DNA of 64,000 nucleotides, from contig CP126122.1 in the NCBI GenBank assembly GCA_030123565.1, positions 2,305,001 through 2,369,000 on the forward strand, given 5' to 3'. Positions 44,460 to 63,378 of the stretch are shown here, piece after piece. The notes under the pieces were generated by a model, which was not told the origin of the DNA, made no database searches, and saw only the letters and a list, made by a program, of their open reading frames with translations. Within the stretch, counting starts at the first letter, position 1. Each line of letters starts with the position of its first letter. The DNA is from Nitrospira sp. (GTDB taxonomy: Bacteria; Nitrospirota; Nitrospiria; Nitrospirales; Nitrospiraceae). Position numbers and translations under genes: made by a program.

Positions 44460-44597
44460 GTGGCTCAAGACCTCGATGACACTCGCGCATGCTTACTCTG
44501 CAAGTTTTCCCAGCGGGCTGGTTTTTCCGTCTGGCAACGTAGAAACGCTCTGCGTGGGGATGAAGCCGGGTCAAGGACATTACGCGACGAATGGTGA
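44460..44597 (+). CDS. small CxxC ORF, 45 residues
   Basis: GTG start with GAGG at about 6 bp spacing. The product contains ACLLCKFSQRAGFSVWQRRN, with a CxxC pair and a basic aromatic C-terminus ending TLRDEW. It sits between the zinc-ribbon gene (15 bp after its TGA) and the TIR-like gene (8 bp before its ATG). The tight spacing and the cysteine pair argue that it is real. I know no family for it, and a chance open frame cannot be excluded. Confidence 0.45.
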   Translation: MAQDLDDTRACLLCKFSQRAGFSVWQRRNALRGDEAGSRTLRDEW

Positions 44598-44605
44598 GGG
44601 AAGTT

Positions 44606-45736
44606 ATGGCGAGTGAACCAGAAAATGAGCTACTTGAAGTGCATAAGCACCTCCTCGATTTTGCCGAGCAGTACGACGCCAATCCTGCAACATCCAGACT
44701 CAATGAGATATTCAACCGTGCTAAAGAGCTTGGAAGGAGCGCAAGTGGGTCGTGGCTAGGATATCACGCCAATGTATACTACAAGGACTTCAGTGCGCCG
44801 CCAGCCGGGGAATCCTTCAACATTCAATATGGAACTGGTGGGTCGTATTTTTCTGAATCGGACCCAGACTGGATTGAGCGCACAGATCAAGAAATCACTA
44901 ACCTTCTATTAGGCCCTGCTGGAAAGGAAGCTCTCGCGGTCGCCGATCAATTATCAGAGAAAGGTCGTTTACTTCTGAGCAGGGCCAAAATGGATGTGTC
45001 TTCCGTACTCACGGTCTACATCGGAGTTCATGATGACCCGTTCGTTCGCCGGATAGCGGAAGAGATTGAGAAGGTCGAGGTGCTAGATGCGGCGGCCATC
45101 GCTAATGAATTGGCGCCGAAGCGACCGTTGATCACGGGCGACATGCGAGCCTTACAGCAGGGCACGCGTACGCCTCCACACGTTCACGTGCTGGCGCACA
45201 TCTCAGCAACGCATCAGCCTGCCCTACACTGCCGGGAGTTAGCAGGGCGACTTGAAAAACTTGCCGCACACTTCGCGCGCACCAAGCGAAAGCAAGTGCG
45301 GGACGCTCGGGTCGGGACAAACATCTTCATCGGCCATGGACGCTCTCCGGCCTGGAGAGAGATCAAAGACTTCATCCGGGACCAGCTTGGTTTACCGTAT
45401 GATGAGTTCAATCGTGTCCCTGTCGCTGGCATTACCAACATTGCCCGTCTTTCTGAAATGCTTGATGCCGCAGCATGTGCCTTCATTATTATGACTGCTG
45501 AGGACGAGCGAGCTGATGGTAAGGTCCAAGCGCGCATGAACGTGATTCATGAAGTTGGTCTCTTTCAGGGCAGACTGGGATTCACAAAAGCCATCGTCTT
45601 GATCGAAGAAGGCTGCGAAGAGTTCACCAACATTCAGGGACTGGGGCAGATCCGTTTTCCGCAAGGCAATATCTCAGCTAAATTTGAGGAAATCAGGCAA
45701 GTCCTCGAGCGCGAAGATGTAAGTGCTAGAACTTAA
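44606..45736 (+). CDS. protein with C-terminal TIR-like (Cap12/Pycsar-type) domain
   Basis: A 376-residue protein. The C-terminal 130 residues are a predicted nucleotide-binding TIR-like domain of the PF10137 kind: NIFIGHGRSPAWREIKDFI, then AACAFIIMTAEDERADGK, RMNVIHEVGLFQGRLGFTKA and IVLIEEGCEE. Related domains act as NAD-consuming effectors in anti-phage systems. The N-terminal 240 residues look helical with two short strand blocks and are not recognised. The ATG at 44606 has GAGGGAAG in front. The last codons and TAA fall in the inverted repeat of the IS481 element, so the original C-terminus may have been changed. Confidence 0.75.
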   Translation: MASEPENELLEVHKHLLDFAEQYDANPATSRLNEIFNRAKELGRSASGSWLGYHANVYYKDFSAPPAGESFNIQYGTGGSYFSESDPDWIERTDQEITNLLLGPAGKEALAVADQLSEKGRLLLSRAKMDVSSVLTVYIGVHDDPFVRRIAEEIEKVEVLDAAAIANELAPKRPLITGDMRALQQGTRTPPHVHVLAHISATHQPALHCRELAGRLEKLAAHFARTKRKQVRDARVGTNIFIGHGRSPAWREIKDFIRDQLGLPYDEFNRVPVAGITNIARLSEMLDAAACAFIIMTAEDERADGKVQARMNVIHEVGLFQGRLGFTKAIVLIEEGCEEFTNIQGLGQIRFPQGNISAKFEEIRQVLEREDVSART

Positions 45737-45753: not shown

Positions 45754-45782
45754 GTCCTCTCCTTCACGAAAGGAGTGAGGAC
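45754..45782 (+). promoter_or_regulatory. hairpin covering the transposase ribosome-binding site
   Basis: GTCCTC and TCCTT pair with AAGGA and GAGGAC (right arm 45770-45782, with a two-base bulge). The loop is CACGA. The right arm contains AGGAG, the ribosome-binding site of the transposase ATG at 45784. In a transcript reading in from the left this hairpin would hide the site, a known way for insertion sequences to stay silent when read through. Confidence 0.5.
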
Positions 45783-45783
45783 C

Positions 45784-46818
45784 ATGACCACCGAACAAAA
45801 GATCATCAGGGCGAAGGTCGGCGTGTTGGAATTGGCGAAGCAACTGGGCAATGTCTCCAAGGCCTGTCAGCTGATGGGCTATAGCCGGGACAGCTTCTAT
45901 CGCTTCAAAGAACTCTATGAGACCGGCGGTGAGGCAGCCCTTCAGGAGCTCTCCCGCCAGAAGCCACTGCTAAAGAATCGGGTAGCGGCGGAGGTCGAAC
46001 AGGCCATTGTGTCCATGGCGGTGGCCCAACCAGCCTGGGGCCAAGTGCGGGTGGCCAATGAACTGCGCAAGCAGGCGGTGACCATCTCGCCGGCGGGGGT
46101 CCGGTGCATCTGGCTCCGGCATGATTTGGAAACCATGCGGAAACGACTCAAGGCGCTGGAGGCCAAGGTGGCCCAAGAGGGCCTGGTCTTGACGGAAGCC
46201 CAGGTCGTAGCGTTGGAGAAGGCGAAGGCGGACAAAGAAGCCCATGGCGAATTCGAGAGCGAGTGTCCGGGCTACTGCGGCGCCCAAGACACCTTCTATG
46301 TCGGCACGCTCAAGGGCGTCGGGCGGATCTATCAACAGACCTTCATCGACACCTATAGTAAGGTCGGGTTTGCGAAACTGTATGACCGGAAGACGCCGGT
46401 CATGGCCGCCGATCTCCTGAATGATCGGGTACTGCCCTTCTTCGAGCAGCAGGAGATTCCCTTGAACCGAGTGCTGACCGACCGCGGGACCGAGTACTGC
46501 GGCACACCCGAGCGGCATGAGTATGAACTGTACCTGGCCGTGGAAAACATCGACCACACGCGGACTAAGACGCGGCATCCCCAAACGAACGGGATCTGCG
46601 AACGGTTCCACAAGACGATGCTGAATGAATTCTATCGGGTTACGTTTCGGAAAAAGATCTATCGCACGATCGAGGAGTTGCAGACCGATCTCGATGCGTG
46701 GATGGCAGACTACAACCACCAGCGCCCACATCAAGGCCGCTGGTGTTATGGCAAGACCCCGATGCAGACATTCCTGGACAGTGTGGCGTTGGCAAAGGAG
46801 AAAATCTTAGCGGCATAA
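45784..46818 (+). CDS. IS481-family transposase
   Basis: A 344-residue DDE transposase. The N-terminal HTH is [20 protein letters not shown], and the arrangement [20 protein letters not shown] is typical of the family. The rve-type catalytic core has [20 protein letters not shown] (first Asp), [11 protein letters not shown] (second Asp) and [19 protein letters not shown] (Glu), so the triad is complete. The ATG at 45784 has AGGAG eight bases upstream; a GTG at 45775 in the same frame is less likely. Confidence 0.93.
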
Positions 46819-48251: not shown

Positions 48252-50948
48252 ATGCACGTATTTGCCGCGATGACGCGTTTGACAGCCCGGTGCGAGCGGT
48301 GTACCTTTCGGCTTCGCGAAATCTCCCGATTCACACTCGATAAGTTGCGCACCTCATATCAACTCACTCAGGCCGACATGCCCATCACCGGAATCAATTG
48401 GAAAGCGAATGAAGGGTATGACCTCCATCTCCTACGCGGTCGCACCAGCCGTGCATTTCGGACCTTGGTGGAATTCACGAGGGATGACGGAACCAAACAG
48501 GATGCAGCCGATTACTTAGCCGCGAATGCCGATGTGACCCTCGGTTTCCAGCCCTCATTCAGAAACGTGCTGGATATGACGAAGAATCCTCCCGTCTGTA
48601 CCGGTTTCGAGATGACCATCAATCACGAGACCGGCGAAATCGAAGTGCCGATCACGGCGGATCTCGACATCCACAACTTCCTGCTCCATGCGACCGCGGA
48701 GGATTCGAGCGACGATAAAGAATATCGCATCAGCATTCGCATCCATTTACACGACCGGGTCACCTCCGCATGGCTGACGCCCCCCATCTTGACCCTCCGT
48801 CCCGATGGAGCCGCCCTTCCCCAAACCACCATGACCCGGTTCAGCGTTCGGGCTCAGTTCGACGACGGCACCGTGGGAGACCTGACCCACCACCATGGTC
48901 TCGTCTGGGGCCCGGCTTCGAACGTGAACGCGGAAGGACGATTGATCATTGCCGCAGGCAACAGCCCGAGCGACCAACCGGTTCAAATTACGGCGACCCT
49001 ACCCGCTGATTTGCGGGACGCGTTTCTTCCGAACCCGCCGACGCTGACCGCGACCGGCCATGTGCGATTCGCCGTGGATTGGGCGGCGGACGCCACCATC
49101 CAAGCCGAGGCCGTGCAGATTCAGGATACCTGGCCCGGCACCATCAACCCGGACCTTGTTCCGAACTTCCTCTTTCTCTGTGACGGCTACAAAACCGAAG
49201 ACAAGCCGCATTTCGAGTCGCAGGTTCGGAGCATGCTGAGTCTCATGAAGAAAAGCCGGATAACCCGTCCCTTCGATCTCCTCTCCACCTCCATGAACTA
49301 CTTCCAAGCCTTCATCCCATCCAATCACCACGGGATCTCCGTGCTCTGCGAGGTGTATCCGGAGCAAGAAGCAAACGGCAACGTCAAAACCGCCTCGAAT
49401 GGGATCGTCAACTTCTATTGTGTGCCCAACCCGGAAGATCCTTCAGGGGACGCCAAGTGGGATGTGGGCAACGTCATCTTTCGTCTGGGACTGCCGGTGC
49501 CGGGACAAGGACTCGAACGGACGATTCAACAGACGCGCGACTATTGGAACAGGGTTCAAGACGACATTCCTCACAACAGGATTTCCGACAAGACCGTTCG
49601 CGCCTGGCAAAAGCTCTCGAAACGGACGTTCTTGGAGGAAACCGATTCAACCCTCGGACTCAGCTACGGCGAATACCCCTCCATCATGACGGAAAGTGAC
49701 AGCTTCGAAATCGGATTTCAGTTCTCCAGAATGTCGCGCATTCGACTGGACCCGCTGTTGAACCGATTGCGGGATGCTCACAACAATCCCCTGGGACAGC
49801 TGTGGGCCGAACGGCCGGACGGCACTCGCCCCAACAGCTATCCGCTGATTTTCATCCTTTCCTCGCTGAAATGGGATCGAGGCGTGAACTACGGCCGGGG
49901 GTACATCGCCATGAATGTGGAGGATCGCGATGCGATTCCCGCTCGACCGGTGACCGGCAAACCGACCTACAGCATCGACCTCACCGGCCGGATCACCAAA
50001 ACCATTTCCCATGGCCGTCTGATTCGCGGATGCCACGAGGTGGCGCACTCATTCGGATTGGGGGACGAATACGAAGAAAAAGGAACCCTGCCGCAGAGTC
50101 TCGACATTGACACCCGTTATGGCAATCTCCAAAAGCACAGTGATCTTGAAGACCCGGCGAGCCACGACCTCGACGGCGACTTGATCAAGTGGCGTTGGCC
50201 GCGCATTCGTAAGGCCGCGGTGATCGTGCGGGCGGTCACGGAAGTCCAGCCGGGAAAATTTCAGATCCCCGTCGTCTTGGGACAGGCCAAACAATTTGCC
50301 ATCGGAGACACGGTCTTGCTCCGCCTGCGTCAATATCCGAATCCGTTGCCGCGTGACCCAAACCCCAGCGGACAGCTGACAATCATCGGAATTGCCGATC
50401 CCGGGGGAGCCACCGACCCGTCGAGACCGGCCGGACCCGACAATCCCTTGCTCGCCGTCGTGATCGTCTCGGCGAAAGGCGGCCACACCTTCACGCAGGC
50501 GGACGCCGCAAGATACACACCCGGCTGCATTGCTTACCTCCCAACGGCGGCGCCCTCGTCAGTCCGTAATGAGAACTATCCCTTCGCGGAACTCGTCGCC
50601 CTGAATATCAAAAATCACATCACCAAGCGAGGTCGTGCGCTCAACCAAGACCCGGCTCATGACGACATCTGCGTGCCGGACAAGAACGGCATTCAACAGC
50701 CGGTGAAGCTGGACGTGGACCTGCCGTTTTGTTTCAAACACAAAAATCGCATCGTGGGCCTGTTCACCGGCGGCAAGACCTACAGTTGCGGCGTCTACCA
50801 CCCGACCGGCTCCTGCATCATGCGTAATTCCAATGAAGACGGGAAAGAGTTTTGCGCGGTCTGTCGCTATATTCTGGTGGACATCATCGATCCATTCAAA
50901 CACTTTTCCATCGACCTCGATTACGGCGAGATCTACCCGCAAACATGA
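48252..50948 (+). CDS. large metzincin/M64-like metallopeptidase
   Basis: 898 residues with no signal peptide. The catalytic site is HEVAHSFGLGDEY at about 595-607; the HExxHxxGxxD arrangement is a metzincin-type zinc site with Asp as third ligand. It also resembles the M64 (IgA peptidase) motif HExGHxxGxLxDEY with one residue fewer. A Met-turn follows downstream (PTGSCIMRNSNEDGK, then FCAVC). The N-terminal half is strand-rich and probably immunoglobulin-like. The start is uncertain: 48252 has no good ribosome-binding site, and an internal Met at 48378 gives MPITGINWKANEGYDLHLLR. It is the first gene of the five-gene run and overlaps the next as ATGA. Confidence 0.75.
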   Translation: MHVFAAMTRLTARCERCTFRLREISRFTLDKLRTSYQLTQADMPITGINWKANEGYDLHLLRGRTSRAFRTLVEFTRDDGTKQDAADYLAANADVTLGFQPSFRNVLDMTKNPPVCTGFEMTINHETGEIEVPITADLDIHNFLLHATAEDSSDDKEYRISIRIHLHDRVTSAWLTPPILTLRPDGAALPQTTMTRFSVRAQFDDGTVGDLTHHHGLVWGPASNVNAEGRLIIAAGNSPSDQPVQITATLPADLRDAFLPNPPTLTATGHVRFAVDWAADATIQAEAVQIQDTWPGTINPDLVPNFLFLCDGYKTEDKPHFESQVRSMLSLMKKSRITRPFDLLSTSMNYFQAFIPSNHHGISVLCEVYPEQEANGNVKTASNGIVNFYCVPNPEDPSGDAKWDVGNVIFRLGLPVPGQGLERTIQQTRDYWNRVQDDIPHNRISDKTVRAWQKLSKRTFLEETDSTLGLSYGEYPSIMTESDSFEIGFQFSRMSRIRLDPLLNRLRDAHNNPLGQLWAERPDGTRPNSYPLIFILSSLKWDRGVNYGRGYIAMNVEDRDAIPARPVTGKPTYSIDLTGRITKTISHGRLIRGCHEVAHSFGLGDEYEEKGTLPQSLDIDTRYGNLQKHSDLEDPASHDLDGDLIKWRWPRIRKAAVIVRAVTEVQPGKFQIPVVLGQAKQFAIGDTVLLRLRQYPNPLPRDPNPSGQLTIIGIADPGGATDPSRPAGPDNPLLAVVIVSAKGGHTFTQADAARYTPGCIAYLPTAAPSSVRNENYPFAELVALNIKNHITKRGRALNQDPAHDDICVPDKNGIQQPVKLDVDLPFCFKHKNRIVGLFTGGKTYSCGVYHPTGSCIMRNSNEDGKEFCAVCRYILVDIIDPFKHFSIDLDYGEIYPQT

Positions 50949-53900
50949 GCGCCTCAAGTACCCTGGAGCAAGCGGCGAAAGCCGTCATCGGGGCATTGGA
51001 ACCCCTCAGCAGAGCGTTCAGCAGCGTCGATTCATTCAAGGCCTTCATGCGGCGCCTCGGCTGGGACACGGCAGGCCTTCCTCCGGCCTATCTCGCACTG
51101 GGAGAATCGGTCAACGAAGCCGTACAAGCGCTCAATGCCCTGCGCGACGAGCCGACTGCGGAAGAGATCGGCGCCCTCATCCTCAAGGCCAAGTCCGCCT
51201 ACACCGCCGCTCACGCCCTCCAAACGGCCCCGCCCGACGTCGATGCCGCGGCATTCGCCGCTGAGATCGGTGAACGGCTGTTCGAAATCCTGTGGACCGA
51301 TTATCTCGCCTTGCACCAGCCGGCCCTGTTCAATCTCCTATCGATGCTCGACGTGATCACAACGGACGACGTGCCTGCCACCGCCCAACGGCCTGGTTAT
51401 GTGCGCACGCGCTTCAAGTGGAATGAACTACCCACGATTATCTCTGATCCCCTGTCGCTGCCCGAGCGGGTCTATGGATGGGGCACCCCGCAGCTGAATT
51501 TCCCGCTTCTGGCGCAGCATCTCGGCGAGTTGTTGTTCGCGTTGGATTTTCCCGTCGTAGTCGGCAAGGCAGACAGGCTTCTCGCGGAGGCCTATGCCGA
51601 CGACGAGGTCGGTGTCGACGAAGATGTCTGGGCGCTCAAGGTTCCGTTCTACTACATCACCGTCGCGGGGAAAAATCTGGAGGCCTCGTTCAGGCTCCTG
51701 GAGAAAAAGGGCGCCGGCGCTGCGTTGCCCGGCCTGGTCATCGAGCCGCAGATCCCAGAAGAATTCCCCCTGACGCTGCACCTCGCGCCGACGATCGATC
51801 TCAGGATAAGGGCCGGGACCAACGCTGCGTCACAACTGGGCATCGTGATACGGCCGGGCGACGCCTCAATCACCTATCCATTCCAGCCCGGCACTGTTCC
51901 GCCGTCTGCCGGAATCGGCCTGGGCTTCGACTTCAACCCGACGATTCCGACATTGTTGTTTGGGTCATCCAATGCCACGCGACTGGAATTCCAAGGCGCG
52001 TCCGTCGATCTCGACGCCTCAATGATCGATGGGGAATTGGATATTCTTCTGAGCGCGCAGCTAAAACGACTCGCCATGGTTCTGGCACCGGGTGACGGAG
52101 ACTCGTTCCTGCGCACCATGCTTGGCGACGGTGAACGCCGCTTTGAGATACCGCTCGGCATCGAATGGTCACGCCGCAACGGACTCCATTTCAACGGAAG
52201 CACCGCCTTCGAGGCAGCGGTCTATCCCCGTCAACGCATCGGGCCGATTACGCTGGACGGAATTGCGCTGCGCCTCTTTGCTCCATCGGACCATTCAGCC
52301 GACCTCAGCCTGGCAGTCGGCGCACAACTCTCGGGACGGCTCGGTCCCGTTTCGTTTGCAGTGGAAGGACTGGGCTTCCTCGTCGATGCCAGGTTCTCGC
52401 CGGGGAACGTCGGGCCGTTCGATCTTCAACTTGGGTTCAAACCCCCGACCGGCCTGGGCCTCGCAATCGACGCGACGGTGGTGCAGGGCGGGGGATTCCT
52501 CTCGTTCGATCGAGACAAGGAACAATACGCCGGGGCCGTCTACCTGGAGATCACCGGCGGCCTCGCGATCACTGCCCTCGGGCTGTTGAGCACGCGCCTG
52601 CCCGACGGCACCAAGGGCTTCTCCCTGGTCGTGGTCCTCACCGCCGAAGGCTTCCAGCCCATCCCGCTCGGCTTCGGTTTCCTGCTGACGGGCATCGGCG
52701 GCCTGCTCGGCATCCACCGGACCGTCAATGAAGGAGCGTTGCAAGCGGGCGTGCGCAATCACAGCCTCAACGCCGTCTTGGCGCCGGACGATCCCGTCCG
52801 CCATGCCCCGCAGTACCTCAGCGCGCTGAATACGATTTTCCCGCCGGCCCGCGACCACTATCTCTTCGGCCCGGTCGTCCAGGTGACCTGGGGCACCCCG
52901 ACCCTGGTCACGATCAACCTGGCCCTCGTCTTTGAGTTCGGGGCCCGAACCCGCTGCTTCCTGCTGGGAACGATCTCGGCCGTGCTCCCCAAACCGGATC
53001 TGGACCTCGTGCGGCTGCAGATGAATGTGGCCGGCGGCATCGACTTCGACCAGCAGCGCGCCTTCCTCGACGCGGCACTCTATGACTCGCGCCTGCTCAA
53101 CAAGTTCATCATCACCGGCGAGATGCGGATGCGCATGAGTTGGAGCAACCGGCCGTTCTTCGCGCTGGCCGTCGGCGGGCTGCACCCGGCCTTCACGCCG
53201 CCGCCTGGGCTGGAGCAGATGCAGCGCACGGCCATCGTCTTCGCCGACGCCGACGACCTCAAGATCCGCTGCGAAGCCTACTTCGCCCTCACCTCGAACA
53301 CGGTCCAGTTCGGCGCGCGGGTCGAGCTGTTCGCCAGGGCCTCGAAGTTCAGCGTCATCGGCCAGGCCGGCTTCGACGTGCTGGTCCAGTTTGATCCGTT
53401 CTCGTTCATTGCCTCCCTATACGCCTCGCTCCAGCTGAAGTGCGGGTCGCGCAACCTCTTCAAGGTGAAGTTCGCAGGAGAGCTGTCGGGCCCTCGCCCA
53501 TTGCAGGCCCGCGGCAAGGCCACCTTTGAAATTCTCTGGTGGGACTATTCGGTGTCGTTCAACCGCACGTTGATCAGCGGCGAACGCCCGCCCCTGCCGC
53601 CGGTGACGGATGTCGCAGCCCTCCTGCGCCAGGCCCTCACAAGCCCGGCCGGTTGGAGCACCACGGCACCGGGAGCCGGCGAGCGGCTGGTGAGCCTGCG
53701 GGACCGGCCCGGCACGCCGACTGCCATCCCCGTCCATCCCTTGAGCCGGCTGACCCTCACACAGAAGGTGGTGCCGTTGAATGTGCAGATCACGCGGTTC
53801 GGCAACAGCCCGATCCTGGGAGGGCCGCAGGAGTTTCGGATCCGACAGGTCACGGTGGGAATCGGAGCGGCGACGACGGAGCCGGTGCGGGACCATTTTG

Positions 53901-54361
53901 CCCCCGCGCAGTTCCGCGACCTGTCCGACGACGAGAAACTCTCCAGTCCCTCGTTCGAGCTGCTGGAAGCCGGCGTCCAGATCGGGGCAGAGCCGCCGGA
54001 CTGCGGCAGCGCAGTCACGGCAACCGTCGAGTACGAGGAGATCCTCATCCCCGAACCGATGCCACCCGACCCGGCGGTCCCTGGCCGCAGACGACTCGGC
54101 CTGGACGCGGGGGTGGCAGCACGGTTCGCCCAGTGGAGCGCCGTCGGCTTGCGTAGTACCTCGAAACAGGGTGCCACGGCCTACCGCGGGCCGGCTGTGG
54201 CCCTGGCGACGCCAAGCCGAACCTATAGGGTGGTCTCGCAGCGAGACCTGACGATACGCGGCATCATGACGGACTTCTCCACGCGCACCGAGGCCATCGA
54301 CGCCCTCCGGGCGCTCACAGGAGACCCGCGCGAAGGGCTGCAGATCATCGCAGTAAGATAA
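50945..54361 (+). CDS. DUF6603 domain protein
   Basis: 1138 residues, start ATG 50945 overlapping the upstream stop. After a helical N-terminal 150 residues, the protein is almost wholly amphipathic strands. Segments such as YAGAVYLEITGGLAITALGL, then LPDGTKGFSLVVVLTAEGFQ, GFGFLLTGIGGLLGIHRTVN, FGPVVQVTWGTPTLVTINLA and FALAVGGLHPAFTPPPGLEQ match the DUF6603 pattern as I remember it. The family has no established function. The C-terminal 250 residues are a separate strand-rich region. There is no signal peptide or membrane helix. Family assignment is from memory. Confidence 0.7.
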   Translation: MSASSTLEQAAKAVIGALEPLSRAFSSVDSFKAFMRRLGWDTAGLPPAYLALGESVNEAVQALNALRDEPTAEEIGALILKAKSAYTAAHALQTAPPDVDAAAFAAEIGERLFEILWTDYLALHQPALFNLLSMLDVITTDDVPATAQRPGYVRTRFKWNELPTIISDPLSLPERVYGWGTPQLNFPLLAQHLGELLFALDFPVVVGKADRLLAEAYADDEVGVDEDVWALKVPFYYITVAGKNLEASFRLLEKKGAGAALPGLVIEPQIPEEFPLTLHLAPTIDLRIRAGTNAASQLGIVIRPGDASITYPFQPGTVPPSAGIGLGFDFNPTIPTLLFGSSNATRLEFQGASVDLDASMIDGELDILLSAQLKRLAMVLAPGDGDSFLRTMLGDGERRFEIPLGIEWSRRNGLHFNGSTAFEAAVYPRQRIGPITLDGIALRLFAPSDHSADLSLAVGAQLSGRLGPVSFAVEGLGFLVDARFSPGNVGPFDLQLGFKPPTGLGLAIDATVVQGGGFLSFDRDKEQYAGAVYLEITGGLAITALGLLSTRLPDGTKGFSLVVVLTAEGFQPIPLGFGFLLTGIGGLLGIHRTVNEGALQAGVRNHSLNAVLAPDDPVRHAPQYLSALNTIFPPARDHYLFGPVVQVTWGTPTLVTINLALVFEFGARTRCFLLGTISAVLPKPDLDLVRLQMNVAGGIDFDQQRAFLDAALYDSRLLNKFIITGEMRMRMSWSNRPFFALAVGGLHPAFTPPPGLEQMQRTAIVFADADDLKIRCEAYFALTSNTVQFGARVELFARASKFSVIGQAGFDVLVQFDPFSFIASLYASLQLKCGSRNLFKVKFAGELSGPRPLQARGKATFEILWWDYSVSFNRTLISGERPPLPPVTDVAALLRQALTSPAGWSTTAPGAGERLVSLRDRPGTPTAIPVHPLSRLTLTQKVVPLNVQITRFGNSPILGGPQEFRIRQVTVGIGAATTEPVRDHFAPAQFRDLSDDEKLSSPSFELLEAGVQIGAEPPDCGSAVTATVEYEEILIPEPMPPDPAVPGRRRLGLDAGVAARFAQWSAVGLRSTSKQGATAYRGPAVALATPSRTYRVVSQRDLTIRGIMTDFSTRTEAIDALRALTGDPREGLQIIAVR

Positions 54362-54387
54362 TGACCGCATGAACAGAGGAACGAGCC

Positions 54388-57198
54388 ATGGCTGACAATG
54401 CGGCGCTTCACTTTCTGCCCTGGGCGAGACAGGGCGCGACAGCCGGAATCCCCACGGCGGATTCGCTCACGCCTGGTCAGGCGGCGCAGGTGGCGCTGCC
54501 GATTACGGTGAGACTCGCTCAATTCGAGGTGACGTCACAGATTCACCTCGCAGGCCCCGCCGAGGTCACATCCATCGACCCACGGCAGATCGTTCGCACC
54601 GAGCCGCGACACCTCACCACGAACTTCGCCGTCAACCTGTTTCCCCACATTGAATTCGACCGGCCCGATTTCCCCTGGTTGTTCACCCCCGCCAAGCCGG
54701 GCCAGCAGGAACGACTCCGTCCCTGGCTGTATCTGGTCGTGATCAAGAAACAAGAAGGCGTCAGCTTGAGCGGGGCCCAGCCCTCCTCCTTGCCGCGCCT
54801 GGCAATTACGGCGCCGGCTAGGCCGGGCAAGGAGTTGCCGGACCTCTCGGAATCCTGGGCCTGGGCCCATGCTCAGATCACCGGCGGCCTGGCCGATACG
54901 GTCCCTTCGCTCAAGGCCGCGATCGACCAGGCGCCTGAGCGCACCCTCTCACGCCTCTTGTGTCCCCGGCGGCTCGAACAGGCCACGGCCTATTACGCCT
55001 GCCTGGTTCCCACATTTGAAGTCGGTCGCAAGACCGGACTCGGCCTCCCTGTGCCGGACAATGAACTCTCGCAACTCGCCCCGGCCTGGCAACAGGACGC
55101 GACGGACGTACTGTTGCCCGTCTATTTCTCCTGGGAGTTCAGCACTGGGCAAGAAGGCGACTTCGAATCGCTGGTGCGGTTGCTCCAACCAAGACCGATC
55201 CCAGCCCAGGTAGGAACGACCACGCTCGACATCGGCCATCCGGGGTTCGGATTGCCGGAGCAGGCGGATGCGGTCGTGCCGATGCCCGGCCTATTGCAGC
55301 CGGTACCGCTTCCCGCCGTGCCGGCGCCGGCCGTTCCACCGGCCCTGCAGGCAGGACTCGTCAAGATCCTCAATGCACCGGCCGACGCCCTGACTCAACC
55401 GACGAACGATCCGATCGTGGCCCCCCCGATTTACGGCGCGACCTATCCACCGAAGCAGCGGGTCGACCTGACCAACCAGCCGCCCCCCTGGCTGAACGAA
55501 CTGAACCTCGATCCGCGCCACAGGATCGCCGCAAGCTTCGGCACCCAAGTCGTGCAACAGGATCAGGAAGCGCTGATGGCCTCGGCCTGGCAGCAGATCG
55601 ACGCAGTGCAGAAGGACAACCTCGACCGCCGCCGCCGCCAACTGGCGCTGGTCAATCGCACCCTGCTCTTCACCAAACAACTGAGCCGGCTCGACCCGGA
55701 TGAGCTGTTGCAGATCATGGGGCCAAGCCTCACCAAGGTACAGGCGAGCGAGACGGCCGGCGCCAAGACCGTCGCAACGGACATCTGGTCGTCCGAATTT
55801 CCCGCCTTCTGCACGGCGGTGCTGCGGCGCGTCGCACGCCCGCGTGGTCCCGTGAATCGGCGGTTCCTCCCAGCTCAGTTTCTTTCCACGCAAACCAGGC
55901 CGCTCGTGAAACTCCTGAACCACCTGCCCACGGCTCCACCCAGGCTGCCGTTCCTGCTCCGGCCGCTTCGCTTGCGAATCGCCGGTATGGTGACGGCCAA
56001 GCGGGTGTCCGATGCAGCAGGGCTTCCCCTGATCGATGTTTCGAAGATGACACCGGCGAAGGTGCAGGCAGAACCGGCCCATGGTTTCTTTATTTGGAAG
56101 GTCGATCACTGGGAACGGAGTTCCGTCTTGCTCGGGCAGGAATTTCGCCAAGCGGCCTTCGATCACCTGAGCCGGGTGGTTCGCCAGGGGGTCGTACTCC
56201 GGCCGACCTTCACCAAGCCCAACGCCCAAACGTTGCTGAACAGCCTGAACCCCCGGTCAGCCGGCATGACGGCCCGGCCGAGGGGGCCGGCGATCGCCTC
56301 GGAGGAAGATGGTATCCTCGCGCATCCGCAATTCGACCGGCCGATGTCGGAACGGCTGATCGACCTCGCACCGGAGTTTCTCCTGCCGGGATTGGAATCG
56401 GTTCCGGCCAACAGCGTCACGCTCGTTCAAGCCAACAACCGGTTCATCGAGGCCTTCATGCTGGGGCTCAACCACGAGATGGGACGAGAATTACTCTGGC
56501 GCGAATACCCCACCGATCGGCGCGGGACCTACTTCCGTTCCTTCTGGGACCAGCGCGGCGCGCAAGCCGACGGCCAGTCCCTCGCCTTGCCGCCCATTCA
56601 CGAATGGACCGGACCGTTGGGGCAGAACGGGGCGGGAGCCGGAACGACGCCTTTGATCCTGCTGGTTCGCGGCGAACTGTTGCGCCGGTATCCGACCGCC
56701 GTCATCTTTGCCGCCAAGGCCCAACGGGACCAGGCCTGGCGTCTGACACCGAGTCAGACTGCGCGCTATCCGCTCTTCCGTGGCTCGGCGCCGCCGGATG
56801 TCACCTTCTTCGGATTTGACCTGCGCGAAGAGGAGGTCCGGGGCGACAGCCGGCCTGACGGAGACCCAGGCTGGTTCTTCGTCATCCAGCAACAGCCGGG
56901 CGAACCGACCTTCGGACTCGATGTCGATCCCGGCGGACAACCTCCGCGCATCACCAACTGGAACGAACTCACATGGCGGCATCTGGTGCGCTCAGAAGAA
57001 GAACTCGCAAGCCTCACATACGTCCGCGTGGCACAGGGCAACCCTCCCCTTCCCGACACCTCGGCCAATCCGCCCGGTGCGCAATGGGGGCGGAATTCCG
57101 CCCACATGGCACGCATCACCTGGCAACAGCCGGTCCGCATCGCCATCCACGCCGGCAAGATGCTGCCGCCGGCCACGGGAGGCGGGTCCCATGCCTGA
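54388..57198 (+). CDS. giant uncharacterised protein of the operon (C)
   Basis: 936 residues, no signal peptide, no membrane span. The ATG has GAGGAACGAGCC ahead of it. The N-terminal block FAVNLFPHIEFDRPDFPWLF, then RPWLYLVVIKK is strand-rich. A basic helical block lies near 385-430 (DNLDRRRRQLALVNRTLLFT). A conserved-looking core appears at about 660-710 (NNRFIEAFMLGLNHEMGREL, LWREYPTDRRGTYFRSFWD). Proteins with such a core occur in other bacteria, as I recall, but I cannot name a family or function. It ends 8 bp inside the start of the next gene. Confidence 0.7.
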   Translation: MADNAALHFLPWARQGATAGIPTADSLTPGQAAQVALPITVRLAQFEVTSQIHLAGPAEVTSIDPRQIVRTEPRHLTTNFAVNLFPHIEFDRPDFPWLFTPAKPGQQERLRPWLYLVVIKKQEGVSLSGAQPSSLPRLAITAPARPGKELPDLSESWAWAHAQITGGLADTVPSLKAAIDQAPERTLSRLLCPRRLEQATAYYACLVPTFEVGRKTGLGLPVPDNELSQLAPAWQQDATDVLLPVYFSWEFSTGQEGDFESLVRLLQPRPIPAQVGTTTLDIGHPGFGLPEQADAVVPMPGLLQPVPLPAVPAPAVPPALQAGLVKILNAPADALTQPTNDPIVAPPIYGATYPPKQRVDLTNQPPPWLNELNLDPRHRIAASFGTQVVQQDQEALMASAWQQIDAVQKDNLDRRRRQLALVNRTLLFTKQLSRLDPDELLQIMGPSLTKVQASETAGAKTVATDIWSSEFPAFCTAVLRRVARPRGPVNRRFLPAQFLSTQTRPLVKLLNHLPTAPPRLPFLLRPLRLRIAGMVTAKRVSDAAGLPLIDVSKMTPAKVQAEPAHGFFIWKVDHWERSSVLLGQEFRQAAFDHLSRVVRQGVVLRPTFTKPNAQTLLNSLNPRSAGMTARPRGPAIASEEDGILAHPQFDRPMSERLIDLAPEFLLPGLESVPANSVTLVQANNRFIEAFMLGLNHEMGRELLWREYPTDRRGTYFRSFWDQRGAQADGQSLALPPIHEWTGPLGQNGAGAGTTPLILLVRGELLRRYPTAVIFAAKAQRDQAWRLTPSQTARYPLFRGSAPPDVTFFGFDLREEEVRGDSRPDGDPGWFFVIQQQPGEPTFGLDVDPGGQPPRITNWNELTWRHLVRSEEELASLTYVRVAQGNPPLPDTSANPPGAQWGRNSAHMARITWQQPVRIAIHAGKMLPPATGGGSHA

Positions 57199-60100
57199 AC
57201 CGACATTGCTGCATGCGGACCGCCCGCTGGTACTCCTGCCCGTTCGCCTGGAAACCAGATTTTTCGGCAATGAACTGCGGATCCGCGTCTACCCCGATAC
57301 CATCCACATCGACACCCATGAACCGGAACTCACCGCGGACGAATTGCAGTGGGGCCGGCATTTTCACGAACTGCTGTGGCGAGCCGCCACCGATGAGGGA
57401 AGAACGCAGGCGGCCTGGAGCCAACTGGCCGATCGGTACGGCGCGGAACGGGCCGCCTGGATCGCCCTGCAACTCACACCGGTAAACGGCGCCGATCGAC
57501 CGCAGGCGCCCCTGCCGCCCACCGAACCCCTTCCGATTCCACCGCGCTTTCCCGACGTGCCCACGCGCCCCGCATCGCAACCACAGTCATCCTGGACCCG
57601 CGCGCCACGGACGCAAGTCCTGCCTGATCGCTGGATCGTCACCGCCTTCGTCGGAGCGAATGTCGTCGCCACCGCAACAGGACGAGCGATCCCGGATCCC
57701 CTGCCTGTCGGTCCCGACCCGCAGGCTGCCATCCCGGAAAGCGACGATCAATTGCCTCTGGACGAGGGCATGACATGGATGGTGGACTTCGACGTGGCCG
57801 AACAATCGGGCATGGCCCTGCGACTCCGCCTGCCGCCTCCGGCTCCCGGCACGGTTCAACGCATCGACCGTCTCATCGTGATGGGCGTGAAGGAGTCCCT
57901 CGATCAAACTGCCTCCGCCGATCGCCTGCACGGCCTCTTGCAGGCCCACCGTTATACCGACGGCTTCAGCCTGCTCGCGCAAGGCACGCCCACCAACAAC
58001 AGCGCCGACAGCCCATCCGGTTTCGGCTCCGAGGACCCAGGGCACAGGAACAGTTCGCGCCTCGTCCTGGGCGGCCCCTTGTTCACATCCGACGACTCCT
58101 CCGACGGCGACGAACTGCACAAGGTGCTCGGCTTGCCGGTCGATCTGCTGACCAGGACGGCTGGTACGGACGGCCATGAACAGACCGACGCGCGCCACAT
58201 GAACCGCTCCCTCTGGGCCGCCACCTGGGGCTACTACCTCGAACAGATGATGAACGGCATCTTTCCCGACGCGGAGGTCGATGCCGACCTCACCTGGGCC
58301 AGGACCCACTTCATCGAACATGTGCGGGCGGCCGGGCCCCTGCCGGCCTTGCGCCTCGGCAAACAGCCCTACGGCCTCCTGCCCGTGACCTCGCTCGACC
58401 TATGGAAGCCGGCTCCCGGTGACGGGACGGATGCGGCCCGCGATGCCGCCGTCGTCGCCTTCCTCCGCCGCCAGGTTCCCTACTGGCTTCAGCTAAGCGA
58501 AGCAGCGCCCCGCATGGGCCGAACCGGCGATCCTGACCAGGACTTCCTCGCGCTGTTCTCGACCGAAGCGCTCTCCGTTCGGTACGCGGCGCGCAACGTC
58601 ATGGGGGAGAAGTACGTGTGGCATCTGCTCGGGTTTTTGGGTCAGTTCCCGACGGACAGCTCAGGCGGAAACACCACCTTCCAACGCTGGAACACTCAGC
58701 ACCTGAGCCTCGCCAGGGCTGCGTTCAACCGGCTCAATCTCGGACGGGACGGCATGGGGTCGCGGCTGGCCATGGCGCTGCATGCCGCCCAGGCGGATGA
58801 CCTCGGACTCCTCCCGCTCATTCAGGCCGCCCCAGGACCTGCCCTGACCTTCAACTACATCGATCGGCTCGCGCAGGCACCGGATCTGGCGTCGATCCTG
58901 AGTAACGTTGCCATCCCTCAACCCTTGAGCCTGCTGTATCTCCTGTTGCGCCATGCCCTCCTGTTGGAATATGCGGCGGCAGCCGGTCGGAGCCTCAACC
59001 TGACGCCGACGCAACGAGTCGAGCCGGACCAAATCGGCTTCACCCAATTCGGACCGGTGGAGACCCCCTTGGCCCGTATAACGCGGGCGGGCTTGCAAGC
59101 CGGGGTTGCCTTCACGAGCCCGACCGATCCGAGGATGAAGGAATTCCGTGACAGCCTGCTCCATCTCAAGACCTTGAACGTAGAGCGGCTTGATCTCCTC
59201 CTGCGCGGCACGTTGGACCTCTCGACCCACCGGCTCGATGCCTGGGTCACCTCCTTCGCCACCCAACGGTTGAAAAACCTGCGGCGCACGAATCCCACAG
59301 GCATCTACCTGGGAGGGTATGGCTGGATAGAGAATCTGCAGGCAGCGCCCGCAACCCCGACCGTCCCGGCCCCGCCCGGAGAACCGGCGCCCGTGACCAT
59401 CGCACCCAACAATCCCGGCTTTGTCCATGCGCCCTCGCTCAACCAGGCCGCCACCGTGGCGGTCCTCCGCAGCGGACACCTCACCCACGCCGCGACCGGC
59501 AAGAGCGATCTGTTGGCGGTAGATCTGTCGTCGGAGCGGGCGCGTCTCGCGCAATGGCTGCTGGACGGCGTGAAGGCGGGGCAACCGCTGGGAGCCCTGC
59601 TCGGCTACCGCTTCGAACGGGGGCTGCACGAAAACCATCCCGGCCTGACACTCGACCGCTTCATTGCACCGCTGCGCAAGTTGGTGCCGATCACCGCCAC
59701 GCGTGTGGACCAGAACGGTCAACCGGTCGAGTCTGTTCCTGCGACGCATGTCGTCGATGGGCTGAAGCTGTATCGTCGATGGAAAGCCCAGCCGACGTTT
59801 CTTGCCACCGACCTGCAGATTTCGCCGCCAGCACAACAGGCGGACCTGACCGCCCTGGACACAGAACTGCGCGCGCTCGACAACGCGGTGGATGCGGTCA
59901 GCGATGCCTTGATCGCGGAAAGCGTCCATCAAGTCGTTCGCGGCAATCCCAGTCGAGCCGCCGCCACCCTGGATGCACTCGAACGGGGCGAGGCTCCGCC
60001 GCCTGAACTCGACGTGATCCGCACGCCCCGTTCCGGCTCGGCCCTGACCCATCGAGTTCTCGTCCTGTGCGCAAGCGACATGACCGCGCCGGCCTGGTCC

Positions 60101-61561
60101 GGCGATGCAAATTGTCCTCGCGCCCTCGCAGAACCGGCGCTGAACTCATGGGCCGCGAAGCTGCTCGGTGATCCCGGCAAGGTACGTTGTCGCATCGAAC
60201 GGATCGACCAGGCCACCGGACAACCGACCGCTGTACGCGAGTTGCTTCTGAGTGAGCTACAGTTGTCGCCCCTGGATGTGCTCTACTCCGCCGAACAGGC
60301 TGAAGGGACCGGTCAGTCTGAATTGGAACTACTCCTGCTGTATACGGCCCGTCGCACCATGCCGAACCTGTCGCCGGACGTTGTCCTGCGATTGAATCCG
60401 GCACGCGACCAGGCTTGGCCCCTCACCGACCTGAGTTGGCGGGAGTTCATGGAGGTGGCCTGCACGGCTCGCCGTTTGATCGGCGCGGCCCGCGCACTGC
60501 AACCGGCCGACCTCACGATGGACGACAATTCCGGTATCGACGGCATCGACGGCGCAGACCTGCAACGCCGGGCCGATGCGGCAGCGGCCGCGCTTCGCCG
60601 GACGGAAGAGGCGATCCGGAACGCCGTCGCCGCGACGACCTCAACCGCGGAGGCGCTCCGCGAATCTATGCTGGCCCTGACGCAATTCGGCATCATGGGA
60701 GCCGTGCCGCTCTCGCAGGTCGGCCGCACCGATGACGATCTGCGCGTCCTCACTGTGCAGGCTCAGTCCCTCGCCAAGGAGGCAGCCGCGCGACTCGCGA
60801 AGCAGGATACGATCGAGCAGGCCCTGACCGACCAGACGCTCACCGACGAAGCCAACCTGAAACTCCACCAACAACGGGTCCGAGCGGTCTTCGGGGAAGG
60901 GTTTGCGGTCCTGCCTCGGTTCCGTCCGCCGAATGCAACATCGATTCAACAGGCCCTGGCAGCCAGTACGGACGTGCAGGGCGGCGATCCCTTTGCCGTC
61001 CTCACCTTTCATCAACGTATTGCCCGCGTCCGTGAAGCGGTCGCACAGTTGGACGACACGTTGCGGTATGCCGAAGCGCTCGGTACGGGAGACAGCCTCA
61101 CATTCCAGGTCGCGCAGCTTCCCTATCGCGAACAGGACCGTTGGATCGGCCTGCCGGCCACGCCGGAACAGCCGCTTACCGCCGGTCGGCTTTCCCTCGT
61201 GATCCACCTGACGGGATCCGTCGATTTCACGCAACCATTCGCCGGTCTCATGGTCGACGAATGGGTGGAAGTCGTACCCAATGCGAGCGAAACCACCGGC
61301 CTGGTATTTCAATACAACCAGCCTGATGCCTGCCCGCCGCAGGCCATCCTGCTGGCTGTGCCGCCGAATCCGGCGGAGCAGAATGTCTGGACTCAGTCGT
61401 CGTTATTGCAGGTCCTGCGGGAGACCATGGACCTGGCGCGCATCCGTGCCGTGACGCCCGACCTGCTCGACGAATTGAACCAATATCTGCCGGCGCTCTA
61501 TTTTTCCTTGAACGCCAAGGGCGACACGATCAGCACCGATTTCCTCAACCCCGGCCGTTAA
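57191..61561 (+). CDS. giant uncharacterised protein of the operon (D)
   Basis: 1456 residues, starting MPEPTLLHADRPLVLLPVRL at ATG 57191; the longer open frame upstream is inside gene C. The N-terminal PVRLETRFFGNELRIRVYPD, then IHIDTHEPELTADE is distinctive. Later blocks include RTHFIEHVRAAGPLPALRLG, then KQPYGLLPVTSLDLW near 400, and a predicted coiled coil near 1,120-1,160 (RRADAAAAALRRTEEAIRNA). No signal peptide or membrane span. Overlaps gene C by 8 bp, so translation is coupled. I recognise no family. Confidence 0.7.
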   Translation: MPEPTLLHADRPLVLLPVRLETRFFGNELRIRVYPDTIHIDTHEPELTADELQWGRHFHELLWRAATDEGRTQAAWSQLADRYGAERAAWIALQLTPVNGADRPQAPLPPTEPLPIPPRFPDVPTRPASQPQSSWTRAPRTQVLPDRWIVTAFVGANVVATATGRAIPDPLPVGPDPQAAIPESDDQLPLDEGMTWMVDFDVAEQSGMALRLRLPPPAPGTVQRIDRLIVMGVKESLDQTASADRLHGLLQAHRYTDGFSLLAQGTPTNNSADSPSGFGSEDPGHRNSSRLVLGGPLFTSDDSSDGDELHKVLGLPVDLLTRTAGTDGHEQTDARHMNRSLWAATWGYYLEQMMNGIFPDAEVDADLTWARTHFIEHVRAAGPLPALRLGKQPYGLLPVTSLDLWKPAPGDGTDAARDAAVVAFLRRQVPYWLQLSEAAPRMGRTGDPDQDFLALFSTEALSVRYAARNVMGEKYVWHLLGFLGQFPTDSSGGNTTFQRWNTQHLSLARAAFNRLNLGRDGMGSRLAMALHAAQADDLGLLPLIQAAPGPALTFNYIDRLAQAPDLASILSNVAIPQPLSLLYLLLRHALLLEYAAAAGRSLNLTPTQRVEPDQIGFTQFGPVETPLARITRAGLQAGVAFTSPTDPRMKEFRDSLLHLKTLNVERLDLLLRGTLDLSTHRLDAWVTSFATQRLKNLRRTNPTGIYLGGYGWIENLQAAPATPTVPAPPGEPAPVTIAPNNPGFVHAPSLNQAATVAVLRSGHLTHAATGKSDLLAVDLSSERARLAQWLLDGVKAGQPLGALLGYRFERGLHENHPGLTLDRFIAPLRKLVPITATRVDQNGQPVESVPATHVVDGLKLYRRWKAQPTFLATDLQISPPAQQADLTALDTELRALDNAVDAVSDALIAESVHQVVRGNPSRAAATLDALERGEAPPPELDVIRTPRSGSALTHRVLVLCASDMTAPAWSGDANCPRALAEPALNSWAAKLLGDPGKVRCRIERIDQATGQPTAVRELLLSELQLSPLDVLYSAEQAEGTGQSELELLLLYTARRTMPNLSPDVVLRLNPARDQAWPLTDLSWREFMEVACTARRLIGAARALQPADLTMDDNSGIDGIDGADLQRRADAAAAALRRTEEAIRNAVAATTSTAEALRESMLALTQFGIMGAVPLSQVGRTDDDLRVLTVQAQSLAKEAAARLAKQDTIEQALTDQTLTDEANLKLHQQRVRAVFGEGFAVLPRFRPPNATSIQQALAASTDVQGGDPFAVLTFHQRIARVREAVAQLDDTLRYAEALGTGDSLTFQVAQLPYREQDRWIGLPATPEQPLTAGRLSLVIHLTGSVDFTQPFAGLMVDEWVEVVPNASETTGLVFQYNQPDACPPQAILLAVPPNPAEQNVWTQSSLLQVLRETMDLARIRAVTPDLLDELNQYLPALYFSLNAKGDTISTDFLNPGR

Positions 61562-61575
61562 CCGAGGACTCTCCC

Positions 61576-63378
61576 ATGCCGTCGATCACCACCTGGACCA
61601 GACTGGAGCCGAACGCCGCCGGCGCCGCGCCGGCCGACACGTTGCAAGCACGCCTCTATGATCCCCTTTGGCTCTTGACCCGTCAGTGGCAATTGGGCGA
61701 GTTCCAAGGAGACGATGCCGGTACGCCGCTGTCGGCGGTGCTGCGTGGAAACTGCGCCGGACTCACCCGCTACAGGTCCGGCCCTGCAGCGACTCAGCCG
61801 GTACAGGGCGAGCCCTACGATGTCCGAAACGTTCCCCTCGAAACCCTCGTGGAGCGAGAACGAGTGCGGCCCCGTCCCCTCTCGACCGCCCCTGAGCGGC
61901 TGCAGCCGGCCGCCGAAGCGGGACAACAGTTTCTCCGCCTGCTCGCGCGCGAACCGTTCGGCTCCCGTTACCACGCGGCATTCATCGCAACCTTTCCCTT
62001 GCCCATCTTGAGTGAGGAGCAACGGACGGCAGCCGGGCGAGATAGCCTGCGTTTTCTGGATGTCATGGCTGGTCGCGTTCCGAACGGGACGACGCTCGCC
62101 GCCGCAGTGAGGAAACCCACGTTGCCGGCCGGCCTCGGCATCGAGCCGGTACACCAGACTGCCGTCCGCCATGCCTGCGATCTGTTTCTCCGCTGGTATG
62201 ACCAATTGTTCAGTGAGCCGTCCGGCGACGCCCTCAACAACCAGGCCTGGTCTTCCGAGCGCATGGAATACGCCTTCTGCACCGCCGCGCCAACCTCCGC
62301 CGACCCCTCCGCGGGAGAAACGGTCCTCACGGCGCGCGAATACTACGGCGGCACCCTCGACTGGTACGATTTCGACCTGAGTCCATCGGCCTCACTCGGC
62401 GCTGCCGCGGATCGAGCAGCAGGCAAGAATCCCCTGCCCATCGTCCGCACCGTCATCCCTGCGCCGGTCACCTATCGCGGCATGCCCTCACCCCGCTGGT
62501 GGGAATTCGAAGACAGCGCGGTCGATTTTGGCGGGATCGAGACGGAGCCGGAGGACTTCGCACGCCTGTTGTTGGTGGAATTCGCCGTGACCTACGGCAA
62601 CGATTGGTTCGTGATTCCGGTCGATCTCCCCGTCGGCTCACTCTGCCAAATCCAGTCGCTGGTCGTGGCCGACACCTTCGGGGTACGGACGTTGATTCCC
62701 TCCATCGGCGCCTCCACCCATCCCGCTGCTTCCTCCTGGCGGATGTTCACCCAATCGATAGACCGCACGGCTGGAGCCGCACTCAGCAGCAGGCGCAGAC
62801 CTGACGCATTGTTCCTCGCCCCCACGCTCTTGCGCACCATCGAAGGGAAGCCGCTCGAAGAGGTGCTCTTTCTCCGCGACGAAATGGCCAATCTGGCCTG
62901 GGGCGTCGAACGGCTTGCCGAGGGACTTTCCGGCCGTTCCGTCAACCGGCGCGAAGCCTACCTTGAGGCACAGAGTCGCACCGCCTCGACAGGGCAGGCG
63001 GAGGAACAGAAGCACCTCACCTGGCGCCTCGCCACCGAGGTGCCGGACTATTGGATTCCGTTGGTTCCCGTCCAGCAGAAGGCAGGCGAGAGTGCGATCG
63101 TCTTTCGTCGCGGCGCGACGCTCAGGCAGGACGGGTCTATCCGGCCACAATCGGCGCAAAGCCAGGTGCTGCTTCCCGACCCGACCGAGAAGCTCGACAT
63201 CTACGAGGAAGAACTCCCCAGGGAAGGCCTGCGTATCACGCGATCCTACCAATACAGCAACTGGCTCGACGGTTCCCACCTGCTCTGGATCGGCCGGCGC
63301 AAACAACCGGGCCGCGGCGAAGGATCGAGTGGCTTGCAGTTCGATGTGGTGGAAAAGAAGGAAGGAAGGAATTCGTAG
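61576..63378 (+). CDS. large uncharacterised protein of the operon (E)
   Basis: 600 residues, 14 bp after gene D, with GAGG before the ATG. The N-terminus (ARLYDPLWLLTRQWQLGEFQ, then GDDAGTPLSAVLRGNCAGLT) and the later LLVEFAVTYGNDWFVIPVDL, VGSLCQIQSLVVADTFGV and LFLRDEMANLAWGVERLAEG look strongly constrained and full length. No signal peptide or membrane span. I recall similar uncharacterised proteins in other phyla but no assigned function. It is the last gene of the run. Confidence 0.7.
   Translation: MPSITTWTRLEPNAAGAAPADTLQARLYDPLWLLTRQWQLGEFQGDDAGTPLSAVLRGNCAGLTRYRSGPAATQPVQGEPYDVRNVPLETLVERERVRPRPLSTAPERLQPAAEAGQQFLRLLAREPFGSRYHAAFIATFPLPILSEEQRTAAGRDSLRFLDVMAGRVPNGTTLAAAVRKPTLPAGLGIEPVHQTAVRHACDLFLRWYDQLFSEPSGDALNNQAWSSERMEYAFCTAAPTSADPSAGETVLTAREYYGGTLDWYDFDLSPSASLGAAADRAAGKNPLPIVRTVIPAPVTYRGMPSPRWWEFEDSAVDFGGIETEPEDFARLLLVEFAVTYGNDWFVIPVDLPVGSLCQIQSLVVADTFGVRTLIPSIGASTHPAASSWRMFTQSIDRTAGAALSSRRRPDALFLAPTLLRTIEGKPLEEVLFLRDEMANLAWGVERLAEGLSGRSVNRREAYLEAQSRTASTGQAEEQKHLTWRLATEVPDYWIPLVPVQQKAGESAIVFRRGATLRQDGSIRPQSAQSQVLLPDPTEKLDIYEEELPREGLRITRSYQYSNWLDGSHLLWIGRRKQPGRGEGSSGLQFDVVEKKEGRNS

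Follow-up and report, generated by a model that had tools for sequence, protein, structure and literature searches.

The window analyzed here, 64,000 nucleotides of a Nitrospira sp. genome (contig CP126122.1, positions 2,305,001 to 2,369,000), carries five large, tightly coupled plus-strand genes, P1 to P5, between positions 48252 and 63378. Comparison of these genes with homologous loci shows, at the level of sequence, that the first gene is a swappable slot for different hydrolases, placed over a constant chassis formed by P2, which contains the DUF6603 domain, and P3–P5. The same comparison shows that P2 is itself made of two parts, and that several hydrolase-P2 units can accompany one set of P3–P5. 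The gene system is widespread in bacteria and archaea and apparently undescribed. We propose that the conserved chassis (the DUF6603 half of P2 together with P3–P5) carries the exchangeable hydrolase via the type-specific N-terminal half of P2 and is delivered to attack other cells, a proposal on which the evidence leaves us evenly divided. The five open reading frames (898, 1138, 936, 1456, and 600 residues) and their junctions (an ATGA 4-bp overlap at 50945, a 26-bp gap, an 8-bp overlap, and a 14-bp gap) were confirmed as the preliminary description of this DNA had given them.

The DNA upstream of P2 was examined for ~50 loci. The gene immediately before P2, in the same orientation and in most cases overlapping it or adjoining it without a gap, encoded a PhoD-like phosphatase, a phospholipase D, an S8 subtilase, a Nal1/trypsin-type protease, an M64 peptidase, an Amidase_2 enzyme (peptidoglycan amidase), or a DUF4056 protein. 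Both HKD motifs of the phospholipase D were intact, and the S8 and Nal1-type proteases had a common C-terminal domain of ~105 residues despite their unrelated catalytic parts. In the window, the slot is occupied by P1 (48252..50948, plus strand, 898 residues), an M64-type zinc metallopeptidase. The metallopeptidase assignment, proposed earlier from the sequence, was upheld by a match to PF09471 (E 6e-10; 39.2 bits, cut-off 26) and by the intact catalytic HExxH zinc motif HEVAHSFGLGDEYEE near residue 595. Because PF09471 was matched over two short stretches only, we consider P1 a divergent M64 member. This version of the slot was found in 4 of 296 Nitrospirota genomes. Close relatives of P1 begin at its Met43 (MPITGI...), and the true start is thus probably at 48378 and not at 48252, which gives a protein of ~856 residues. 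The earlier suggestion of a protease system was too narrow: at least six hydrolases, among them the M64 enzyme, replace one another in this slot, whose constant chassis consists of the other four genes. At one locus (L164:9629-16237, minus strand), a P2 of 2203 residues carried an N-terminal extension of ~1270 residues without a significant Pfam match, which is possibly a hydrolase fused to P2. A promoter scan upstream of the window's P1 yielded nothing useful. Two other genes lie upstream of the operon: a TIR-domain gene of the CAP12/Pycsar effector type (PF10137, E 7e-20; 44591-45736), 2.5 kb away, and after it, just upstream of the operon, an IS481 transposase (45775-46818).

The core proteins P3 (54388..57198, 936 residues), P4 (57191..61561, 1456 residues), and P5 (61576..63378, 600 residues), all on the plus strand, belong to no known family. 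Searches of Pfam, NCBIfam, PHROGs, and PADLOC gave no significant match for them, and they remain unassigned, as first reported. A scan of GTDB species genomes with P5 gave 80 loci. Among the 54 loci with at least ~9 kb of DNA upstream of P5, P5 was preceded by P3 and P4 in the same orientation in 53, and P2 was also visible at the edge in 47; the sole exception had a very long P4 that filled the flank. The loci came from Nitrospirota, Acidobacteriota, Pseudomonadota, Actinomycetota, Bacteroidota, Myxococcota, and Cyanobacteriota, and additional P5 loci were found in Cloacimonadota, Ignavibacteriota, and haloarchaea. The P2–P5 block thus recurs and keeps its order across at least seven bacterial phyla, which excludes chance for the five-gene block. 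Annotated plasmids of Streptomyces, Rhizobium, and the haloarchaeon Salinigranum carried the same gene series, with P3 and P4 each split in two in the Rhizobium version (P3 split in Rhizobium lusitanum). The distances of P2–P5 correlated between loci (Mantel rho 0.64–0.81, exceeding all permutations), and two unrelated genomes had P4 and P5 fused into a single open reading frame (L025:4746-11159 and L171:9192-15497). In the P5 tree, the window's P5 grouped with Nitrospira sequences with full support, and phyla were intermixed.

It is therefore well supported by sequence comparison that P2–P5 are one functional unit. The preliminary description had taken all five genes as possibly one machine; this is upheld for P2–P5 by their order, correlated divergence, and P4–P5 fusions, and P1 is an exchangeable slot. 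The transposase next to the operon and the mixture of phyla in the P5 tree would also fit a mobile cluster of large proteins that travel together by chance, without a joint machine. We consider this very improbable, as the order is kept across phyla, P2–P5 diverge in a correlated manner, P4 and P5 are fused in places, and the N-terminal halves of P2 match the hydrolase type (see below).

Several variants of the core were observed. Most Nitrospira versions have a coiled-coil-rich gene of ~270–345 residues between P3 and P4 (e.g., L149:9838-10647 and L152:7807-8733), which is absent from the version in the window. DUF6603 also occurs in a second kind of locus (L162 1744-15436, from G057; L163 and L165–L170, from Bacteroidota), where a DUF6603 protein of 1243–3223 residues is followed by other large proteins (~500–960, 280–320, and 1220–1410 residues), with a faint likeness to P3 only at the N-terminus of the first following protein. 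The gene before DUF6603 in L165 carries DUF4135, which we take to be related to lantibiotic synthetases. A two-gene set lies near the core in three genomes (L052:11943-15336, L100:1796-4511, L106:30333-35281); one of its genes begins with MLEYSPQESRLQ in L052 and L100, and the other has a VGLGDCFLL-like N-terminus and is perhaps metallo-beta-lactamase-like. No common downstream gene recurred beyond a few related genomes.

P2 links the slot to the core. In the window, its residues 1–480 (50945..52384, plus strand) form the hydrolase-specific N-terminal half, a proposed adaptor, and residues ~481–1138 (52385..54361, plus strand) form the constant DUF6603 half with long amphipathic beta-strands. 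The earlier assignment of P2 to DUF6603 was correct: PF20248 was matched with E 7e-132 (441 bits, cut-off 27), from model position 3 to 501 of 502, over P2 residues 430–996. All 44 aligned P2 proteins matched this domain. The upstream hydrolase could be classified for 35 P2 proteins, and for these we determined whether the nearest neighbor of each part was paired with the same hydrolase type. With the N-terminal part (residues 1–400), this was the case for 33 of the 35 proteins when pairs of at least 85% identity were ignored, and for 34 without an identity limit (shuffle maximum 17). The corresponding numbers for the DUF6603 half were 8 and 23 of the 35, and for the last 140 residues of P2 the count was 7/35. 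The DUF6603 half thus tracks the host core rather than the hydrolase type. Among P2 pairs with more than 60% identity in the DUF6603 half, the N-terminal identity averaged 68% for the same hydrolase type, compared to 21% (maximum 26%) for different types. The N-terminal halves of different types were not unrelated domains, as 306 of 468 different-type pairs were homologous (E<1e-5). Because they are still detectably homologous across types, they seem to be variants of a single module that have diverged.

The P2 of the window shows the same two-part composition. Per 40-residue block, its N-terminal half was ~50–88% identical to the M64-paired P2 of another Nitrospira, compared to ~20% for P2s paired with other hydrolases, and its DUF6603 half was closest to PhoD-paired P2s. 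The base composition of the window shifts at the junction inside P2. The guanine plus cytosine (GC) content was 0.58–0.62 in P1 and P2 residues 1–480 and 0.67 in the remainder of P2, and the GC content at third codon positions was 0.71–0.72 and 0.86, respectively; the N-terminal part of P2 is thus nearer to P1 than to the rest of its own gene. Several Nitrospira loci had the arrangement [PLD-P2][S8-P2]-P3-x-P4-P5 or [PLD-P2][M64-P2]-P3-x-P4-P5 (PLD, phospholipase D), in which the second slot varied between genomes and the surroundings were constant. Seven Nitrospirota genomes had two hydrolase-P2 units each. In six of these, the two P2 genes shared 1735–1785 bp at the 3′ end (blastn), with a DNA identity of 97–100% in five genomes and 87% in the sixth, and the DNA before this shared stretch contained nothing alignable. 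In the seventh genome, G029, the amidase-paired and PhoD-paired P2 genes shared 2259 bp at 99.6%. The matching of P2 to hydrolase type, the near-identical DUF6603 halves, the tandem loci, and the break in composition are all explained by cassette exchange, with a junction near residue 480–500 of P2.

The proteins were further compared by structure prediction and fold searches. The AlphaFold2 model of P2 (pLDDT 70, pTM 0.51) was good only for residues ~460–880 (pLDDT 85–95 over most of this region), which form an extended antiparallel beta meander whose strands are 12–16 residues long. These strands were strongly two-sided, with a mean face difference of 2.9, compared to 0.8–1.0 in P3–P5. The first ~220 residues were predicted to be mostly helical, with low confidence. 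The best resemblance of the model was to apolipoprotein B100 (ApoB; Z 15.8, root-mean-square deviation (rmsd) 10.0 Å, 297 residues). Porins gave Z 14–15 but an rmsd of 10–12 Å, and ushers and LptD gave a Foldseek E of ~3e-4; P2 has no signal peptide, and its family also occurs in monoderms and haloarchaea. Because the rmsd is high, the likeness to ApoB and porins lies in the strand pattern and not in the architecture. The modelled sheet with one greasy face suggests contact with lipid or membrane, or a large closed shell. Among the matches that we did not retain, P2 matched only de novo helical coiled-coil designs in the PDB profile search, at its N-terminus, and the effector-associated domain EAD1 at the same end was below threshold (E 0.095) and not found in other family members.

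The AlphaFold2 model of P5 (pLDDT 81, pTM 0.80) showed no match in PDB by Foldseek (best E 0.035, probability 0.05) or VIA (best Z 3.4, rmsd 6.6 Å over 88 residues), and no match among viral structural models. Its most conserved stretch, RQWQLGEFQGEDAG, was modelled with low confidence and might serve as a partner interface. P5 also had no match in the PDB profile search, and nothing significant was found for P3. The strongest PDB profile match, of P4 to TAL effectors (E ~1e-6), fell within a helical region, and we attribute it to composition. The unassigned proteins P3–P5 are thus without a confident profile match, and the P5 model is without a known fold. Homology among P3, P4, and P5 was not found; an apparent P5–P4 match came from the fused open reading frame L025 in the alignment.

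In a hydropathy screen, neither a signal peptide nor a strong membrane span was detected in P1–P5, in agreement with the preliminary description, and their families showed no N-terminal signal-like stretches. P2 has a single moderately hydrophobic stretch near residue 572, which is conserved across its family. The absence of signal peptides would suit an intracellular immunity system, in which the giant core detects a phage or other invader and then activates the coupled hydrolase within the cell. Defense systems usually diversify by exchanging their effectors, and protease effectors recall the NTP-dependent conflict systems (PMC7159879). The TIR-domain gene upstream of the operon, the plasmid-borne copies, and the patchy presence of DUF6603 (30/296 Nitrospirota, 4/198 in an actinobacterial sample, 10–11/198 in a Bacteroidota sample, and 0/14 controls) point in the same direction. 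However, no NTPase, STAND, or nucleotide-sensing domain and no PADLOC match were found in P1–P5, defense genes did not recur as neighbors at other loci, and peptidoglycan amidase, peptidoglycan-binding, and lectin modules make little sense in the cytoplasm. We therefore regard intracellular immunity as unlikely.

Some homologs carry accessory lamin-tail (LTD), lectin, FG-GAP, or peptidoglycan-binding domains, which hint at work outside the cytoplasm. Together with the nutrient-type hydrolases (phosphatase, proteases) and the amphipathic sheet of DUF6603, which resembles outer-membrane proteins or ApoB, the lectin, LTD, and FG-GAP additions would fit a surface- or envelope-associated complex for the cell's own use. 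In such a complex, P2–P5 would scaffold the hydrolase for nutrient scavenging or envelope remodeling, and enzymes would be swapped to suit the diet. We hold this to be unlikely as well. None of the families has signal peptides or anchors, and the carriers include diderms, monoderms, and haloarchaea, so that there is no common outer-membrane site. Moreover, near-identical DUF6603 halves with exchanged N-terminal halves look more like polymorphic effector loci than like nutrient enzymes.

Most weight is given to delivery against other cells, above intracellular defense and envelope or nutrient functions. In this proposal, the N-terminal half of P2 would be a cognate adaptor that docks its hydrolase, and the long amphipathic sheet of DUF6603 would form, with P3–P5, a large particle that holds the enzyme. 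Different enzymes could therefore use one particle. The particle would present the hydrolase at a membrane or carry it there, and the complex would leave the cell without Sec or Tat, by lysis or an unknown route. The targets of the hydrolases would be competing or predatory cells, either their envelope or their proteins; the payload encoded in the window would be the M64 metallopeptidase. The list of enzymes (amidase, phospholipase D, phosphatase, proteases) resembles that of effectors used against other cells, and the role of the system is probably antagonism or envelope attack, with delivery and target inferred. The soluble complex and non-Sec export, both suggested by the preliminary description, are likewise what we infer.

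Several observations weigh against this proposal. A survey of recurring neighbors found no secretion gene beside the locus, and no consistent immunity-like gene was present among neighbors of at least 110 residues. The lack of signal peptides leaves the way out of the cell without an explanation and would allow a wholly intracellular role. Several slot genes resisted assignment (e.g., L072, L089, and L098), and at some loci no clear hydrolase precedes P2. The hydrolase gene and the 5′ half of P2, moving as one piece of DNA, could yield the N-terminal correlation without any docking. Finally, the nearest-neighbor counts are not independent events, because the P2 sample is weighted towards Nitrospirota. 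The proposal in its fullest form is a cross-domain effector-deployment machine, in which cognate N-terminal halves of the DUF6603 protein load hydrolases onto a shared P3-P4-P5 particle and recombination at a fixed junction in P2 diversifies the repertoire. This version we put forward tentatively, as one that is rather more likely to need revision than to hold.

The exchangeable cargo of this gene set, which is 12–15 kb long and occurs in many phyla and in haloarchaea, comprises proteases, phospholipases, phosphatases, and a peptidoglycan amidase. No paper that mentions DUF6603 or PF20248 was found in a literature search that left out most subscription papers and all bioRxiv preprints; within the literature covered, the earlier claim that the system is undescribed holds. 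If the particle model is true, a new kind of effector delivery would be added to the contractile, Tc, and contact-dependent systems. It would also offer a natural and directly testable loading code, because cargo specificity seems to be located in one half of one protein. If the system belongs to defense or envelope biology instead, a function would still be assigned to DUF6603 and three large unnamed protein families.

The system was compared with known ones. In polymorphic toxins, a single long protein ends in the toxin as its C-terminal domain, and the immunity gene follows downstream. They resemble the present loci in the combination of a constant part with an exchangeable enzymatic module, in recombination in the constant region, and in amidase, phospholipase, and protease activities. 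In contrast to polymorphic toxins, the enzyme here is a separate upstream gene, and it is the N-terminal half of the gene after it that varies. Furthermore, no neighbor recurred besides the hydrolases and the core (genes under 110 residues were not examined), and neither a Pfam trafficking domain nor, in the hydropathy screen, a signal peptide was found. In type VI systems, each effector hydrolase is matched to a specific adaptor that loads it onto a common machine. The matched hydrolases (amidase, phospholipase, protease) are similar here, where the adaptor role is presumptive. However, no sheath, tube, baseplate, or ClpV-like genes of type VI or other contractile systems were found (Pfam and PHROG searches of P2–P5; recurring neighbors), P1–P5 had no PHROG match, and P5 had no viral structural match. 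Tc toxins and extracellular contractile injection particles consist of very large proteins that lack Sec signals and form a carrier with exchangeable cargo. P2–P5 are likewise very large and without Sec signals, and would form a carrier with exchangeable cargo, but no Pfam, PHROG, or PDB profile match to TcA, TcB, TcC, or particle parts was found. The NTP-dependent biological conflict systems have effector-associated domains and exchangeable effectors, including trypsin-like proteases (PMC7159879). They share with the present system the exchange of effectors and a domain common to unrelated catalytic domains, but P1–P5 contained no detectable NTPase and only the sub-threshold EAD1 match. Known anti-phage defense systems were not represented, as no PADLOC model matched P1–P5. 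P2 is a clear member of Pfam DUF6603 (PF20248), an entry without a function, whose domain covers only the constant half of P2. Because the defining parts of polymorphic toxins and type VI systems that were tested are absent here, we place the chassis outside the known kinds, although its logic is a familiar one.
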